The notes under the pieces are model-generated. The model was not told where the DNA came from. It saw only the letters and a program-made list of their open reading frames with translations, and ran no database searches. Positions 10,761-21,630 of a stretch of DNA of 25,632 nucleotides are shown piece by piece. The position numbers and the translations under genes were made by a program. Positions within the stretch are counted from its first letter, which is position 1, and every line of letters begins with the position of its first letter. Origin of the DNA: a virus; the IMG/VR virus record IMGVR_UViG_3300005831_000012, positions 1 through 25,632 of that record, one strand, 5' to 3'.

Positions 10761-11755
10761 TGAATATAAGACAACCTCTCACAATCAAGAATCTATATAA
10801 ATATGTAAACGATTATGATATATTTAGATTCTATTGTCCAGGATTTGAAGAAGTAGATAAGAAATTCAAATCTCCATTCAGGTCTGAGGGGAAAGCAAGT
10901 GCAAATGTTTATGCAACCTCATCAGGTAGTTTGAGATTTAATGATTTTGTCTTACCTACAATGAGTAGTATAGAGTTTGTCTGTTATTATTTTTCATTAA
11001 CATTAGCAGAAGCAGTAAAAAAGATAGCGTTGGATTTTAAGATTAGTGGTCTGTTTGTAGTAGATTGGGGAGATACTCCCCTCTCTTCTACAACCCCCAC
11101 TAAATATAATAAAGTTATTAAACCAGCTTCTGATACAATTATACAGGTACGTTATAGAAAATGGTTACCCCATGATATAGAGTTTTGGAATAGTTTTGGT
11201 ATTAGTTTAGAAACTTTGAAATTATTTAACGTACATGCTATTGATTACTTTTGGATAAATCAAAATAGAATAAAATCAGACAGATACTCTTATACATTTA
11301 ATTATTATTGGGAAGATGAAATTTACAGACGTAAAATATATCAACCTTTTAGTATTAATCTAAAGTGGGTTAGTAATGGTGGTAAGATAGTTCAGGGAGA
11401 AGGAATGTTACCAAAAGGAGGTAATTTACTCTATATAACTAAAGGATTAAAGGATGTAATGACTCTTTATGAAATAGGTTATACTGCCATTGCACCAACT
11501 ACTGAAAAAACTTTACCCTCATTAGAATATATTAATAAACAAAAGAGTAGGTTTAAAGAAATTGTACTATTTTTGGATAATGATGAAACTGGTATAGAGA
11601 TGAGTAAAAAACACTCATTAGAAACAAATATACCTTACATCTTGATTCCTAAAGAATATAATTGTAAAGATATATCTGACTTTGTGAAGAAATATAGTTT
11701 AAAGGTCGGAAAAGAATTGATAAAAAATTTAGAATTAAATTATGAAAAAGGCTGA
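10760..11755 (+). CDS. DnaG-like TOPRIM primase lacking zinc cysteines
   Basis: This 331-residue primase-family protein shows a degenerate zinc-finger-like N-terminus (KSPFRSEGKASANVYATSSG, residues 38-57, then RFNDF) where the usual cysteines are gone. It also shows a TOPRIM half with YITKGLKDVM (about 225-234) and LFLDNDETG (270-278). The TOPRIM DxD is intact (D273, D275), but the usual glutamate in the first motif is lysine (K228). It makes RNA primers for the phage replisome if active. It sits after the possible SSB in the same unit and overlaps a small downstream gene by 14 bases. The family call is firm; activity is uncertain because of the lost residues. Confidence 0.87.
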   Translation: MNIRQPLTIKNLYKYVNDYDIFRFYCPGFEEVDKKFKSPFRSEGKASANVYATSSGSLRFNDFVLPTMSSIEFVCYYFSLTLAEAVKKIALDFKISGLFVVDWGDTPLSSTTPTKYNKVIKPASDTIIQVRYRKWLPHDIEFWNSFGISLETLKLFNVHAIDYFWINQNRIKSDRYSYTFNYYWEDEIYRRKIYQPFSINLKWVSNGGKIVQGEGMLPKGGNLLYITKGLKDVMTLYEIGYTAIAPTTEKTLPSLEYINKQKSRFKEIVLFLDNDETGIEMSKKHSLETNIPYILIPKEYNCKDISDFVKKYSLKVGKELIKNLELNYEKG

Positions 11756-13676: not shown

Positions 13677-14434
13677 TGAGAATACAGATTAGAAATAACA
13701 TATACATTCAATTAACAAAAAGTAATTTAAGGGGTTTTACCTTAGAAACAAATTCCGAGGATATAGTAATTACAGAGGACGAAAATTATTATATAACTTG
13801 CTTGATTATAGAGGATAGGTACAAGATAAAAATAGGTGATGAAATTGAAGTTGACGGTACATTGTACATAGTTAATAAAATTCGTTGGGCAAATAATGCT
13901 TTTTTTATTGTGCAAGAAAAAGCTACAAAAACATCTCAGTTTATAATGCCTATATTGGGTTATAGTTATGATTATTTTGACTTTGAAAATAGCTTTTATA
14001 ACAGTTATTTATCTGACGATTATCATTCAATTTATTTAGTGTACAAATTTACTAATTCTGACAAGTATCTTAAACTTGAAGAAAAACTACAAAATCATCC
14101 ATATTTTGAGGAAATAATAGACCCCAATCCTGAACTTGTTGTTATAAAGTTTGTAATACAAGAAATGTTTTGGAAAGATGTAGATAAAATAATGAAAGGT
14201 AAATACACAGAAATATCCGCTACATTAAAATCCAAAATATGTACTTTTCATGGGTTTAGTACTAAAAGTAAAACTTTTAGATTATTATACAGAGATAAAA
14301 AACTAAGAGAAGATATGAGTAAAGAATATGGTTGGGAGATACCTGAGAATTTAGAATTGATGAGTAAACCTATTTTAGAGGAAGAACTATGGACTTTAGT
14401 AAGTATTTCACAGAGGATTGGTATTCTAAATTAA
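13676..14434 (+). CDS. Hypothetical protein
   Basis: This 252-residue protein is counted from the ATG at 13676; the upstream TTG at 13673 is less likely and lies inside an inverted repeat. The first 85 residues are strand-rich (NIYIQLTKSNLRGFTLETN, IGDEIEVDGTLYIVNKIRW), like a small beta-barrel. The remainder is mixed and charged. A MEFWKDV-type helix (VIQEMFWKDVDKIM) precedes a helical end. There is no recognisable active site. It overlaps the uracil-DNA glycosylase gene by 46 bases, one of the longest overlaps here. Function unknown. Confidence 0.75.
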   Translation: MRIQIRNNIYIQLTKSNLRGFTLETNSEDIVITEDENYYITCLIIEDRYKIKIGDEIEVDGTLYIVNKIRWANNAFFIVQEKATKTSQFIMPILGYSYDYFDFENSFYNSYLSDDYHSIYLVYKFTNSDKYLKLEEKLQNHPYFEEIIDPNPELVVIKFVIQEMFWKDVDKIMKGKYTEISATLKSKICTFHGFSTKSKTFRLLYRDKKLREDMSKEYGWEIPENLELMSKPILEEELWTLVSISQRIGILN

Positions 14435-16492: not shown

Positions 16493-17278
16493 ATGGATAA
16501 TATTAAACAGATATTAGAAGGAGTATATAATAATTTAGAGCTTAGGAGGACAATTGTACCTCTGTTTATTGGAAATCCTGGGGTAAGTAAGTCTGTACAA
16601 ATTAGGGATTTTGCCAAGGAAAAGGGAGTTCAATTAGTTCCCTTTATAACATCACAACGTAATCCCTTCGAAATCAGCGGATTAGCTATGCCGGATAGGG
16701 CAACCAAGAAGATGAGTTTCTGGGATTTTGATACACTATTAAAGATGAGGGATGGAGATATTCTATTCTTTGATGAAGTGTTTAATGGTAATCCAACAGT
16801 ATTAAACGCATGTTTAACTATTCTCGAAGAGAGAGAGATGATTTCAGGTAAAAAACTTCCTGACATAATGATAGTGGCAGCAGCTAATCCTCAGGGGATG
16901 GTTCCTCTGACTCCTCAAATTAAGGAAAGATTTATTTGGTATAAGTTTGAATTTCCTAAAAAGGAATGGAAGACTTATATGTTGAATAAATATAAAATGC
17001 CGGAAACAATATCTAATAAACTGGCTGTTCTGATTAATAATGAAGACTTTAAACGTGATAGTAACTATAATTCAGCAAGAAGTGTAGATAAGGCGGTTGG
17101 TATGGTTATATATAGAGTACCTACACCTTATGAGAATGAGTTATTACCTATTTTAAATACTTTGATTGAAAATAAAACAGGGCAGAATGTGGCATTATCT
17201 GGCGATAGGATTTTATCTCCTGGAGAATCAATACCTTGGATAAACATGATTAGATTAATTAAAGGAATTAAAGAGTAA
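16493..17278 (+). CDS. MoxR-type AAA+ ATPase
   Basis: This 261-residue AAA+ ATPase has Walker A GNPGVSKS (27-34), Walker B ILFFDEV (90-96; D94, E95) and a sensor-1 strand VAAANPQG (N132), followed by the MoxR-type insert and lid (VPLTPQIKERFIWYKF). MoxR proteins act with a VWA-domain partner to remodel or insert cofactors into target proteins. That partner is encoded five bases downstream. Such pairs are known from crAss-like phages without a settled function. The ATPase family is firm; its target in this phage is unknown. Confidence 0.92.
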   Translation: MDNIKQILEGVYNNLELRRTIVPLFIGNPGVSKSVQIRDFAKEKGVQLVPFITSQRNPFEISGLAMPDRATKKMSFWDFDTLLKMRDGDILFFDEVFNGNPTVLNACLTILEEREMISGKKLPDIMIVAAANPQGMVPLTPQIKERFIWYKFEFPKKEWKTYMLNKYKMPETISNKLAVLINNEDFKRDSNYNSARSVDKAVGMVIYRVPTPYENELLPILNTLIENKTGQNVALSGDRILSPGESIPWINMIRLIKGIKE

Positions 17279-17283
17279 ATTAC

Positions 17284-18300
17284 ATGGAATTATTAAAAAG
17301 TAAGAAATTTGAATTACCTATATTATATTTTATAAGTGATAGGGAAGAAATAAAAGATATACCGATAGGTGTTCCTTTTATTTATGGTAACAAAAAAGAT
17401 AAGGATAAGTTCGTAAGAATGTTGGAATATGAGGTTATTTGGAATAAAGCTGTTAAGTCTGGATTTCCTTTTAATTTCACAAAGCTACTAAAAGAAGCAG
17501 GATTCAGGAATGTTAAATTCTTTGATTTTTGTGATAACGTTTATTTAGACCACAAAAACATAGGGAATTATGATATTGAATCAATTACTAATCCAGAAAA
17601 AAAACTCTACAGAGGGGGTGATAGTTCTTTGTTTGAAGAATTCATAGAAGACTGTTCTGCTTATGTAGATGTGAATGTTTTAAAGAAATTAAATGTATTT
17701 CCTACATGGTTAATAGATATTGAAAAGGCAATTGAGACTAATGTACATAATTTTGCATTATATAACCCATACATGTATAACAAAAAACTTGATGGAATGT
17801 ATGGGGGTATTGATATGCAAAGTCCAAACAGGAATCTTATTGTGATAGACATATCTGCCAGCATACCAAGGGCAGTAGGAGTAACCTGCTTAACACTGGC
17901 CAAGCATTTAGTTGAAACTTTCTATGCTGACTTATTAATAACAGGTAGAGAGTCACATTTATTTCCTTATGAAGAAATTCAGAATGTGGACATAGAAGGT
18001 ACTTATGGTGCTTTCGGACAAGGAAATGAATCTGATATGTTTAGGCCATTAGTTACAGGGCAACCAAGAAAATACACTACAGCTATTGTATTTGGAGATA
18101 ATCATAGTCCCTGTGACCATTGGACACACACATCCAGAGTAGCTATAGGTAGAGAAGATGCTAAGAAGATGTGTACATGGACAGTAGAAAAAATGATTTC
18201 TCTACATACTGAGAGTGATACTATTAGAGCTGGGTATGGTGATTTCTTTGATGTAAAAGATGTACAACACATCAAAGGTTGGGTTAAGTACATAAAGTAA
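17284..18300 (+). CDS. VWA-domain protein, partner of the MoxR ATPase
   Basis: This 338-residue protein has a VWA (von Willebrand A) domain in its second half. The metal-ion adhesion site DxSxS reads DISAS at residues 189-193 (preceded by NLIVI), followed by a helix and the strand TFYADLLITG. The N-terminal half carries no motif I know. MoxR plus VWA pairs form chaperone-like complexes, and the five-base gap to the ATPase fits co-translation. The region TWLIDIEKAIETNVHNF and a later VFGDNHSPCDHWTH (with several histidines) give it a possible second metal site. Whether it is a metallopeptidase cannot be shown. Confidence 0.82.
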   Translation: MELLKSKKFELPILYFISDREEIKDIPIGVPFIYGNKKDKDKFVRMLEYEVIWNKAVKSGFPFNFTKLLKEAGFRNVKFFDFCDNVYLDHKNIGNYDIESITNPEKKLYRGGDSSLFEEFIEDCSAYVDVNVLKKLNVFPTWLIDIEKAIETNVHNFALYNPYMYNKKLDGMYGGIDMQSPNRNLIVIDISASIPRAVGVTCLTLAKHLVETFYADLLITGRESHLFPYEEIQNVDIEGTYGAFGQGNESDMFRPLVTGQPRKYTTAIVFGDNHSPCDHWTHTSRVAIGREDAKKMCTWTVEKMISLHTESDTIRAGYGDFFDVKDVQHIKGWVKYIK

Positions 18301-18330
18301 AAAGATTAAGAGAATTTTAGTATTAATTAA

Positions 18331-18346
18331 ATATATATATATATAT
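18331..18346. repeat. (AT)8 dinucleotide run
   Basis: Eight AT repeats lie four bases before the ATG at 18351. They form the A/T-rich leader of the next gene, and slipped-strand length changes there could vary spacing and translation. Confidence 0.6.
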
Positions 18347-18350
18347 CAAA

Positions 18351-18845
18351 ATGGGAAAAAAGTTTTTAACAAGCGGAGAAGTATTTGTAGTTAAAGGTTA
18401 TTTGAGTGAAAACGGTAGTAAAGTAGCTCCAGTATCTAACAAAGCATTTGTAGATGCTCAAAAACACGCAGAGTATATAATCACCTTTGCTGAAAAAGCA
18501 AAAGGTAAAGATTTTGTAGGCAAAAAAGCTGACAGTCTTGCAGATTTAAAAGAAGAGGTTAGGAAAGAACTAACTAAAAGTGATGTTAAATATCTTAGTG
18601 AGCCTAAGAAAGTTGCCAAAAGGCTACATGACCAATTAGCTGAGGAGGCTTTAGCTTTTATTAAATATGACAAAACTTTAGATAAAGTTAATCAGGTAAA
18701 TAATTTCTTACAACAATTCAACACGATTCAGGAATTTGAGGAGGTTGGATTATTCTTTGAAGAAGATATTGTCAAATTGGGTAAAATCTATACTATTGAT
18801 GAGATAGTTAAGGCGGTAGAATCAACTATTGACTTACTTAATTAA
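18351..18845 (+). CDS. Lysine-rich helical protein, unknown function
   Basis: This 164-residue lysine-rich, mainly helical protein has a beta start (FLTSGEVFVVKGYLSENGS) and long helices (DAQKHAEYIITFAEKAKGKDF, DLKEEVRKELTKS, FLQQFNTIQEFEEVGLFF). It has no recognised motif. It is the last gene before a strong terminator 10 bases after its stop and follows the MoxR/VWA pair by 50 bases, so it may be a client or regulator of that pair. That link rests on position only. Confidence 0.72.
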   Translation: MGKKFLTSGEVFVVKGYLSENGSKVAPVSNKAFVDAQKHAEYIITFAEKAKGKDFVGKKADSLADLKEEVRKELTKSDVKYLSEPKKVAKRLHDQLAEEALAFIKYDKTLDKVNQVNNFLQQFNTIQEFEEVGLFFEEDIVKLGKIYTIDEIVKAVESTIDLLN

Positions 18846-18855
18846 TCTTTAACAT

Positions 18856-18885
18856 AAAGACCAGATAGAAATATCTGGTCTTTTT
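18856..18885 (+). terminator. Rho-independent terminator with GAAA loop
   Basis: A perfect 12-bp stem pairs 18856-18867 (aaagaccagata) with 18872-18883 (tatctggtcttt), capped by the stable tetraloop GAAA and ending in five T. It closes the MoxR/VWA/18351 transcript. The next ATG lies 11 bases downstream with no visible promoter in between. Confidence 0.9.
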
Positions 18886-18895
18886 ATTTAAAAAT

Positions 18896-19648
18896 ATGAG
18901 AGAACAAATAGACTACGTAGTAAATTATATTAAGCAACTACCCATTGATGGTTGTATAACAGGTTCGTGCCTGTTGGGTGAGTATTGGGAAGGAATGGAT
19001 GTGGATTGCTTTGTGTATGATGAAAAGTCATTTAACAAGATATTGTTTGATTTAAAATATAACCCAGACTTTCAAATATTAGATAAACTTGAGAAATGGA
19101 AGTTTGACAAATATATAAACTGCGAGAATGGTAAGGCAAGCTTTGGTATTACTACAATTAAATTTGTATATAACACAGTTATCCCAGTAAATATAATACT
19201 AAAAAAATACGCTAAAAACACCTTCTCTGTTTTATCAAGTTTCGATATGGATATCATATCAAAAGCTTTGGATATTAAAACAGGATTGATATTAGACTTG
19301 TCCGGAGATAGTGTTAAGACAAAGACAGCCTCATGGAATCGTTGGAATACTGCATTTTATGACCCAGAACTTTGGCAAATTAGTAGGATATTAAGACAAC
19401 TTGAGAGGTTGATTAAATATCACAGAAGAGGTTTCAATACTGATGCAGTGTGTCTTAAATATATAGACTTAATTGATGAGGTACAAAATTACCAAAGTAT
19501 ATTTCAGTCAGAGAGCTTCAATGAAACTCTTAGTATCAGGAAGAAAAATACGAGAATAGTTAAACAGATATGTGAAACATGGTTAAAAACTCATGAAATG
19601 TCTGATGAACAGTTACAATTATTAAAAGAAAAAATTAAAGAGATATAA
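18896..19648 (+). CDS. Nucleotidyltransferase-fold protein
   Basis: This 250-residue protein shows the core of the nucleotidyltransferase superfamily: a GS motif (residues 23-24, ITGSCLLGEYWEG) followed by DVDCFVY (D35, D37), the two acidic metal ligands. A third region VIPVNIIL and SSFDMDI lies about 75 residues further on. The C-terminal half is helical (LWQISRILRQLERLIKYHRRG). Such proteins may transfer AMP or CMP to RNA, small molecules or proteins. They appear in phages as end-modifying or anti-defence enzymes. Target unknown. It starts 11 bases after a terminator. Confidence 0.75.
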   Translation: MREQIDYVVNYIKQLPIDGCITGSCLLGEYWEGMDVDCFVYDEKSFNKILFDLKYNPDFQILDKLEKWKFDKYINCENGKASFGITTIKFVYNTVIPVNIILKKYAKNTFSVLSSFDMDIISKALDIKTGLILDLSGDSVKTKTASWNRWNTAFYDPELWQISRILRQLERLIKYHRRGFNTDAVCLKYIDLIDEVQNYQSIFQSESFNETLSIRKKNTRIVKQICETWLKTHEMSDEQLQLLKEKIKEI

Positions 19649-19649
19649 T

Positions 19650-19838
19650 ATGGCAACGATAGATGATTTGTTAAGAGCATTACAGAATCCAGAAGGTAAT
19701 GCTAAGTTAAAAAATGATTATGAGACTTGGAGGCGAATTGGTAATAAAGATTCCTTTTCAGAACTTGGGCTAAGTTCAGGAGAATTAGATGACTTTTTAA
19801 AAGATTGGATAGGTGATAACCCTTATGAAAATATTTAA
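19650..19838 (+). CDS. Small acidic protein, unknown function
   Basis: This 62-residue acidic protein (DDLLRALQNPEG, then SSGELDDFLKDWIGDNPY) has no cysteines and no known motif. It begins one base after the nucleotidyltransferase stop and ends two bases before the next start, showing operon packing. It could be an inhibitor or partner of the nucleotidyltransferase, but this is only an idea from position. Confidence 0.65.
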   Translation: MATIDDLLRALQNPEGNAKLKNDYETWRRIGNKDSFSELGLSSGELDDFLKDWIGDNPYENI

Positions 19839-19840
19839 TT

Positions 19841-20125
19841 ATGAATAAGATACAACAATTTATAGCAGATAATAACCTTAGTTTAGATGGTAGTGGTAGT
19901 GAGTTAAATTCAACTCTTTGTATAATTTCAGGATATGCTTTATATGAAAGTAGAAATAACTTTAATTATTCTAAATTACTGAAAGATATTGAAGAAGATG
20001 GGTTATATGATTTAACAAGTGGTATTTCTTATGAACTTGAGAGGGTCTATGATTATGCATATAATCATGATTATGCTAACTGGTGGAAAGATGAGGGGGC
20101 TCATTCTAAATATATCTTTGAATAA
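19841..20125 (+). CDS. Hypothetical acidic protein
   Basis: This 94-residue acidic protein has a helical start (NKIQQFIADNNLSLDGSG) and a tyrosine-rich end (LERVYDYAYNHDYANWWKDEG). From memory its phrases (IISGYALY, YDYAYNHDYANWW) look like small proteins from Bacteroides phages and prophages with no assigned role. Its stop overlaps the next start by one base. Confidence 0.68.
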   Translation: MNKIQQFIADNNLSLDGSGSELNSTLCIISGYALYESRNNFNYSKLLKDIEEDGLYDLTSGISYELERVYDYAYNHDYANWWKDEGAHSKYIFE

Positions 20126-20586
20126 TGAGAAGTTTTTTGCTAAAAAATAACAGACCAATTGTTTCCTGGGGTATGCTTGAAGAAGGAACTTTATTCAAAG
20201 GGGACATACCAGAAGGTTATGATTTAGCAGTTAATCCTCATTATCCATACATTATTATTGATGTAGATAAACATCAAAATAAAAAAAATGGATTTGATAT
20301 TATTCCGGAACATCTTAAACAAGAGTTAAGTAATACGCTAAATTATCCAACTAAAAATAATGGAAGACATTATTGGTTCTATTATACAGGTAATAGTGAC
20401 TTACCAAATAAGGCAAGTGGATTAGGAATTGACTTAAGGGTGTGGAGTAGTGATAAGAATAATGGGGGATATGTAAAATGGCATCCAAGGAATACGATGA
20501 GAATAGAGGATGTTTTGTGGATGGCACAACCAAGTTCTAAAAAGATGAATGAGTGGATTGACCATTTATTCTTTTATAAAAAATAG
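20125..20586 (+). CDS. Minimal archaeo-eukaryotic primase (prim-pol) domain
   Basis: This 153-residue protein matches the catalytic core of the N-terminal bifunctional primase/polymerase domain. The sequence IIIDVDK (D46, D48) carries the metal-binding pair, GRHYWF (H82) the nucleotide-binding histidine, and GIDLRVW (D103) followed by GGYVKWHP the third acidic residue and the closing strand. No helicase or zinc domain is attached, so this is an unusually short stand-alone unit. It might prime DNA or extend primers at specific sites. The phage also has a TOPRIM primase at 10760, so the two may divide roles. A non-catalytic role cannot be excluded. Confidence 0.72.
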   Translation: MRSFLLKNNRPIVSWGMLEEGTLFKGDIPEGYDLAVNPHYPYIIIDVDKHQNKKNGFDIIPEHLKQELSNTLNYPTKNNGRHYWFYYTGNSDLPNKASGLGIDLRVWSSDKNNGGYVKWHPRNTMRIEDVLWMAQPSSKKMNEWIDHLFFYKK

Positions 20587-20738
20587 TACCACTCACACTA
20601 TGTAAAAATAGTGTCCCAGGAGTGAGTCCAATAGGGGTGAGGTACACACTATCCTATTTAGCCATATAAGGTATATTTATAAGCCGCAAGGTTATACGCT
20701 TATATAACTACCCAGGCTAAAGTCGGGGTTTTTTTTTT
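20587..20738 (+). ncRNA. Unidentified structured RNA element
   Basis: There is no gene between 20586 and 20771, yet this stretch is about 42% G+C by hand count, clearly above its surroundings, and forms several helices. They are: actcac/gtgagt (20591-20596 with 20622-20627) around actat/atagt; aatagg/cctatt (20630-20635 with 20653-20658); and a long hairpin of tagcc/ggcta (20659-20663 with 20715-20719), atataag/cttatat (20664-20670 with 20699-20705) and gtata/tatac (20671-20675 with 20693-20697). In the first and third hairpins the 3' strand carries a 9-base bulge with CCC. The pair gtacc/ggtac (20586-20590 with 20641-20645) could form a pseudoknot. Ten T follow. I match it to no named RNA family; strand is inferred from the T run. 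Confidence 0.6.
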
Positions 20739-20770
20739 AAATGTAAAGTAATTTACTCAAAATTTGTAAA

Positions 20771-21034
20771 ATGAATGAAAATAATATGTATAAACCTTCT
20801 TTTTGTAGAGTGGAAGTTACATTAAAAAGAGAATGCTATAAACACAGAGAAGATTTGTGGGAATGCAGATATAGAGGTAAGATACTTCAAACACCTATGA
20901 ATAGAATACAGTTTGAGTTAATGTCTGCAATGGATATAACTTCTTTATGGACTGTAATATTAGATTTTAATGAAATAGAAAGCATTAAAATTACTTGTGA
21001 TAATGTAAGAAATCCTTTTGAATATGATAGATGA
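20771..21034 (+). CDS. Hypothetical protein
   Basis: This 87-residue protein has an early cysteine-containing strand (SFCRVEVTLKRECYKHRED), a basic-aromatic middle (WECRYRGKILQTP) and a mixed end. It is the first gene after the structured RNA, with its ATG 32 bases past the T run, so it may be the target of that element. It overlaps the next gene by four bases. No family is recognised. Confidence 0.68.
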   Translation: MNENNMYKPSFCRVEVTLKRECYKHREDLWECRYRGKILQTPMNRIQFELMSAMDITSLWTVILDFNEIESIKITCDNVRNPFEYDR

Positions 21035-21630
21035 AAATTAGAGAATTATTAAAAGAAATTAAAGGTGTATTCAAACTACCTAAGAAGAGATATTATTTTG
21101 GTAAGTTGGCATTTGGTACACCATATTTTTATCCAAGAAACTTCTTATCAACTATTATTAGGGTTAGAAAGTTAAAACTTAGAGGTGAAGAAGAAAGAGT
21201 AAATTATAAAGAAAAATACCCTTATTCAAGAAATACTGACGATATAAAATTTTCTAACTCACCAATGGTAAGAAGAAACAAAGAATGGATTAAGAAGATA
21301 TTTGGCAATTATTATTTAATTCAAATAGGTTATCCTATTATGATTCATACAGTAGAACTTGGATACAAGTGGAAATATGATTCTATTAGATATGAATGGA
21401 GTCCACAATTTCATATATTATTCTTTGGATTGCAATTCTGTATATTCTGGAAAGCACCTAATGTAAATGATGATAAATACTATGAACAAATACTTTGGTG
21501 GATACATTGTGACAAAAATGTTAAAATTGCAAGAAGTACTTGGGGATGGGTAGACTGCAATACTAAAAAAAGTACTTGGAATGATGATTATTTAGAATGG
21601 GAGTATAGAGATGTAGATTTAGGATTATGA
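21031..21630 (+). CDS. Conserved phage protein rich in aromatics, unknown function
   Basis: This 199-residue protein is full of tryptophan, tyrosine and phenylalanine (YYFGKLAFGTPYFYPRNF, GYKWKYDSIRYEWSPQF, FFGLQFCIFWKAPNVNDD) and ends with KKSTWNDDYLEWEYRDV. I recall several of these phrases from long-known Bacteroides-phage hypothetical proteins. The hydrophobic patch FHILFFGLQFCIFW (about residues 127-140) might touch a membrane, but no classical membrane helix is clear. It overlaps genes on both sides by four bases. Role unknown. Confidence 0.72.
   Translation: MKIRELLKEIKGVFKLPKKRYYFGKLAFGTPYFYPRNFLSTIIRVRKLKLRGEEERVNYKEKYPYSRNTDDIKFSNSPMVRRNKEWIKKIFGNYYLIQIGYPIMIHTVELGYKWKYDSIRYEWSPQFHILFFGLQFCIFWKAPNVNDDKYYEQILWWIHCDKNVKIARSTWGWVDCNTKKSTWNDDYLEWEYRDVDLGL

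Follow-up and report, generated by a model that had tools for sequence, protein, structure and literature searches.

An apparently lineage-specific GC-rich spacer element ending in a predicted intrinsic terminator in a phage resembling the crAss-like group

Genomic setting and composition of the spacer

We analyzed a 25.6-kb window, the whole of a fragment (G000) from a low-GC phage (genome GC content 30.5%), in which nearly all genes lie on the plus strand (Table 1). The phage resembles the crAss-like group: among the matches to its DNA polymerase and B12-type ribonucleotide reductase are crAss-like phages from the human gut (35-41% identity). Within this window, start codons lack Shine-Dalgarno sites (5% of starts have one, compared with 2.5% in shuffled sequences), and an A-rich stretch occupies positions -12 to -10. 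Start codons that lack a Shine-Dalgarno site and have an A-rich stretch upstream are a trait of Bacteroidota.

Using the Prim-Pol and VWA-like genes, we collected 18 relative contigs, most of which keep the order of a block of seven genes. The designation "VWA-like" for gene 17284 is read from its position beside the MoxR-like gene, without a database match. The last gene of the block, Prim-Pol-like, has relatives that are 45-67% identical and stand in the same gene order; its TAG stop codon ends at G20586. The spacer studied here begins at this point, on the boundary between the conserved block and a region of changed gene order. Searches by neighbouring proteins found no relative of the first downstream ORF, and the family of the second (21031) was not found in GTDB contigs.

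Table 1. Features at the end of the conserved block (window coordinates)
Feature	Position	Strand	Description
Conserved seven-gene block	16493-20586	+	16493 MoxR-like ATPase, 17284 VWA-like, 18351, 18896 nucleotidyltransferase, 19650, 19841, 20125 Prim-Pol-like
Prim-Pol-like ORF	20125-20586	+	153 aa, last gene of block; Pfam PF09250 E 3.2e-5, PHROG 695 E 3.8e-6
Gene-free spacer, apparently lineage-specific	20587-20770	+	184 nt, first 142 nt GC-rich
5′ domain (predicted)	20586-20645	+	MFE three-way junction closed by GUACC/GGUAC (20586-20590/20641-20645)
Long imperfect hairpin (predicted)	20657-20721	+	outer stem UUUAGCC/GGCUAAA; 9-nt 3′ bulge AACUACCCA (20706-20714)
Intrinsic terminator (predicted)	20710-20738	+	ACCC(A)GGC-UAAA-GUC(G)GGGU, then T10 (20729-20738)
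Downstream ORF	20771-21034	+	87 aa, unknown; start 32 nt past T10
Next ORF	21031-21630	+	199 aa, unknown family; relatives in L012 (53%) and L056 (55%)

The spacer is by far the longest of the window, where no other exceeds 75 nt. Its first part (20587-20728, without the T run) has a GC content of 41.5%, or 38.8% with the T run, and only 0.8% of all windows of 142 nt are equally GC-rich; the other spacers, mostly 4-24% GC, have the opposite composition. The first-pass annotation had described a gene-free stretch of about 42% GC with a T10 end, and both its coordinates and its composition hold. The same annotation had named conservation of an overlooked peptide as a finding that would speak against an RNA; the spacer contains no sense ORF of 20 aa or longer, and its only antisense ORF (36 aa, GTG start) runs back into the upstream gene. 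A 17-nt near repeat (82%), possibly due to chance, links ACTCACACTATGTAAAA (20591-20607) with ACTCAAAATTTGTAAAA (20755-20771), the second of which reaches the start codon of ORF 20771.

The spacer could be unselected DNA, acquired where a rearrangement took place, with no part of functional importance except perhaps the terminator. Its location at a synteny break, its absence from relatives, a folding z-score of only about -2 and repeats at chance level are consistent with this origin. However, phage genomes rarely keep a spacer of 184 nt, and the GC content runs opposite to that of the other spacers; because of this composition, we consider an unselected insert the least likely explanation of all.

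The probable terminator and a possible competing upstream pairing

The 3′ end is the best-supported part of the element. It has the arrangement of an intrinsic terminator, in which the coding strand carries a GC-rich hairpin and, directly after it, 6-7 or more T. The hairpin (20710-20728) consists of seven pairs with one A.G mismatch and one G-U pair, and its predicted folding energy of -7.7 kcal/mol is modest (z -1.6 to -1.8). When the last 15.6 kb are shuffled, 9.5% of the shuffles contain a run of ten T. A simple terminator scanner did not list 20710-20738 because the stem is imperfect.

Similar terminators (AAAAACCCCGAC..GTCGGGGTTTTT) occur in Bacteroidota genomes, where near-identical 3′ arms are also found in ordinary terminators (ACCCCGAC..GTCGGGGTTTTT), and the matches to the 3′ arm in three Bacteroidota genomes are terminator-like (e.g. 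AAAAACCCCGACAAAAGTCGGGGTTTTTTTTT). The element shares with the intrinsic terminators of Bacteroidota and of these phages a hairpin placed directly before a long T run, and its 3′ arm is identical to the GTCGGGGTTTTT of host-type terminators. In contrast to the latter, its 5′ arm is imperfect, reading ACCC-A-GGC where they have ACCCCGAC, and can also pair upstream; unlike ordinary intrinsic terminators, it is preceded by an unusually long GC-rich stretch.

The long hairpin at 20659-20719, with its 9-nt bulge on the 3′ side, is present as first annotated (z -1.38). It competes with the terminator for GGC and UAAA, which can pair alternatively with UUUAGCC about 50 nt upstream. The predicted energies of the upstream-pairing state (-39.5 kcal/mol) and the terminator state (-38.9 kcal/mol) differ by 0.6 kcal/mol, and this near-equality makes an attenuator plausible. 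Since a perfect 7-mer complement like UUUAGCC/GGCUAAA arises in about 4% of shuffles, the switch is plausible rather than demonstrated. In a further predicted state AUCCU pairs with GGGGU, which also places a stem before the T run; therefore, the two states may not differ in termination.

Predicted folding of the element and its 5′ domain

The stretch 20586-20738 has a minimum free energy of -39.5 kcal/mol (z -2.06), and 9 of 300 dinucleotide shuffles are as stable; overall, z-scores range from -1.6 to -2.1, with 9-19 of 300 shuffles equally stable. Among 1020 other windows of 153 nt, ten, mostly coding, fold as well. The predicted folding is modest, and structure outside the terminator is weakly supported.

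In the minimum free energy (MFE) fold, the 5′ domain contains the hairpins ACACUAU/AUAGUGU (20595-20614) and CCC.GGA/UCC.GGG, with CACUC/GAGUG or CUCAC/GUGAG as alternative pairings. The domain (20586-20645) has a z-score of -1.44, with 34 of 300 shuffles as stable. The first hairpin alone (20586-20628) reaches a z-score of -3.25, a stability found in none of 200 shuffles, and so taken it is a more convincing prediction than the fold of the whole element. The 3′ bulge of this hairpin, earlier given as 9 bases, measures 5 nt (CCCAG) in the MFE fold and reaches 9 nt solely when the pairing shifts to the alternative CUCAC/GUGAG register. Two further proposals, a pseudoknot and duplicated modules, find no support above chance. 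The GUACC/GGUAC helix of the suggested pseudoknot exists but nests in the MFE fold as the closure of the three-way junction, as predicted by a folding program that cannot score pseudoknots. Two related modules, proposed from CCCAGG at 20615-20620 and 20711-20716, are not borne out by the repeat content, which is at chance level (seven repeated 6-mers versus 4.3 in shuffles, 18% of which have as many).

Searches for family matches and relatives

No Rfam family matches the element at the gathering threshold, and searches with E up to 10 gave only noise. None of the 13 weak matches is a tRNA or self-cleaving ribozyme, apart from RAGATH-18 on the opposite strand (14.8 bits versus a cut-off of 44.9), and ARAGORN reports no tRNA or tmRNA. 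These outcomes agree with the initial impression that the sequence fits no ribozyme, tRNA or riboswitch pattern. An HDV-like or other pseudoknotted ribozyme was rejected, as no model matches and the order of helices does not fit.

Searches of the 18 relative contigs by blastn, nhmmer and a covariance model of the element gave nothing significant, and three full-length relatives contain no similar stretch. Two relatives added by a nucleotidyltransferase family search of GTDB contigs (L060 and L061) both lack the element. The region had been proposed for comparison across related phages; in all 20 relatives assessed, the conserved block ends at most 40 nt from the next gene, without the element. 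In one of the relatives (L008), the 40-nt spacer after the Prim-Pol gene (13942-13981) is taken up by an almost perfect inverted repeat (TATACATTAAC..GTTAATGTATA). In phages and plasmids, blastn of the element returned nothing or short chance pieces. Searches of two sets of Bacteroidota genomes (396 and 297) yielded no more than short pieces, of which three are 3′ arms of terminators. Two DNA patterns were found in viral contigs, CCCAGG..CCCAGG..GGGTTTTT in 27 stretches and GCCGCAAGGTTATACG in four, none of which scored significantly with the covariance model. By these comparisons the element looks lineage-specific. Its 5′ domain has neither a homologue in the relatives nor an Rfam match that would mark a conserved aptamer. 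One certain sequence of the element is at hand, with no homologue, and hence there is no basis for covariation.

These searches bear on a second explanation, in which the element is a stand-alone phage small RNA, about 150 nt long, that is transcribed from a promoter of its own or arises by processing and ends at the T10 terminator. Such an RNA would regulate targets of the host or phage in trans, or serve to distract a defence system as a decoy. A GC-rich island in an AT-rich genome is a usual mark of structured RNA. The element is such an island, non-coding and with a terminator at its 3′ end, as in phage-encoded small RNAs; the low z-score of its first hairpin and its absence from relatives, as is often seen for accessory RNAs, point the same way. 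Unlike those RNAs, it is predicted from sequence, has no homologue and has no promoter above chance: the best candidate, TTGACC-18-AATAGT (20558-20587), scores 9/12, and 36 such sites were counted versus 30 expected. It also has no family match, and nothing similar was found in phages, plasmids or the 396 Bacteroidota genomes beyond the short terminator-like or AT-rich pieces. We consider a small RNA of this kind possible, though less likely than the explanation favored below.

The best local match to the element among 7720 windows of the 18 relatives is a two-hairpin spacer in L012 (10417-10521) upstream of the 21031 homologue (score 47 versus 36 for the next locus). Together with the aptamer-like 5′ domain and the mutually exclusive terminator and upstream pairings that are predicted, this match would fit a leader, riboswitch-like or bound by a protein, that regulates the cluster from 20771 in cis, with the 5′ part as the sensor and the terminator as the switch. 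As in attenuators and terminator-type riboswitches, the terminator lies close to a gene (32 nt upstream of it), and its 5′ arm is shared with a predicted alternative stem further upstream; unlike them, the element has no recognised aptamer, no conservation and no sign of a ligand or regulated gene. However, the L012 match is weak: with the L012 stretch as the query, unrelated AT-rich stretches score as high, and the covariance model applied genome-wide gives L012 12.9 bits, no better than noise (chance matches 20 and 17). Moreover, the L012 spacer has no T run and no 5′ domain, and the immediate downstream ORFs differ. The L012 hairpin is suggestive only as a counterpart of the element, and a cis-acting leader appears unlikely.

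Proposed function

On present evidence, we consider the feature genuine, but an unusual-looking instance of a familiar thing. The explanation that we favor, with about even confidence, is a lineage-specific terminator or attenuator that marks the end of an operon and has a structured 5′ part. It would consist of an intrinsic terminator and about 120 nt of preceding hairpin-forming RNA, placed between the MoxR/VWA-like/nucleotidyltransferase/Prim-Pol block and the accessory cluster (20771 onward). RNA polymerase reading the conserved block would transcribe the spacer, hairpin 20710-20728 would form, and the U10 tract would release most transcripts, so that termination at T10 would separate the replication block from the accessory cluster. 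The level of read-through would be set by the terminator hairpin against UUUAGCC/GGCUAAA, which takes up its 5′ arm, resulting in attenuator behavior; the downstream genes would need this read-through, because no separate promoter is evident. A hairpin-protected 3′-end fragment may accumulate, with a small RNA possibly released. Transcription, termination and regulation are thus predicted here from the observed position, composition, terminator shape and near-equal energies.

The operon-end terminator or attenuator is favored by the orientation of the hairpin and T10, which lie on the coding strand in an array whose genes all run on the plus strand, and by the presence in the same phages of intrinsic terminators directly before co-directional genes, with no room for a promoter. 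The near-identical 3′ arms in ordinary Bacteroidota terminators, the near-equal energies of the two states and the position of the spacer at the end of the conserved block also speak for it. It is weakened by the imperfect stem and modest energy of the terminator, by the frequency of a competing 7-nt pairing in shuffles (about 4%) and by having no homologue for covariation; in addition, a plain terminator needs no 120-nt GC-rich leader. The element might also represent an undescribed RNA, about 150 nt long and specific to this lineage of crAss-like phage, whose 5′ domain forms a three-way junction and whose 3′ terminator hairpin is bistable, and which regulates processes in the infected host or acts there as a decoy; we regard this as quite improbable.

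On its own, the element is not surprising. Little has apparently been published on how crAss-like phages end or regulate their transcription units, and a full-text literature search for "crAss-like phage" with "intrinsic terminator" found no paper. The element, and even more the hairpin-terminator before gene 18896 described below, provide concrete sites for measuring termination and read-through.

Other structured loci in the window and relatives

A terminator-like hairpin lies directly before the nucleotidyltransferase gene 18896 (window positions 18846-18895); the same spacer was compared in L003-L019, L060 and L061. The hairpin of the 18351-18896 spacer, usually with a T run, recurs at this position in the majority of about 20 relatives; its sequence has fully diverged among them, with the pairing kept. 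It stands directly 5′ of the next start codon, leaving no room for a promoter, and is a candidate positionally conserved terminator or attenuator. Like the element, it places a hairpin and a T run shortly ahead of a gene, on the coding strand. It is about 28 nt long, strong (-15 to -20 kcal/mol) and positionally conserved in most relatives, whereas the element is long, weak and unique.

Loci with tRNA or tRNA-like genes were observed in two relative phages. In phage G008 (L074, 7100-7930 and 17210-17295), tRNA-Thr, tRNA-Gln(CTG) and tRNA-like fragments occur in a non-coding stretch, and there is a further tRNA-like gene not reported by ARAGORN. In phage G001, a tRNA gene on the minus strand (L069, 11575-11679), missed by ARAGORN, has intact acceptor, D and T arms, but its anticodon loop is enlarged to about 39 nt. 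The extra part of the loop, about 32 nt, includes the palindrome AGTATGTACATACT and is too short for a group I intron; the gene could encode an inactive tRNA or a decoy. Directly downstream of it on the same strand (11050-11570), about 500 nt of non-coding DNA contain several strong inverted repeats.
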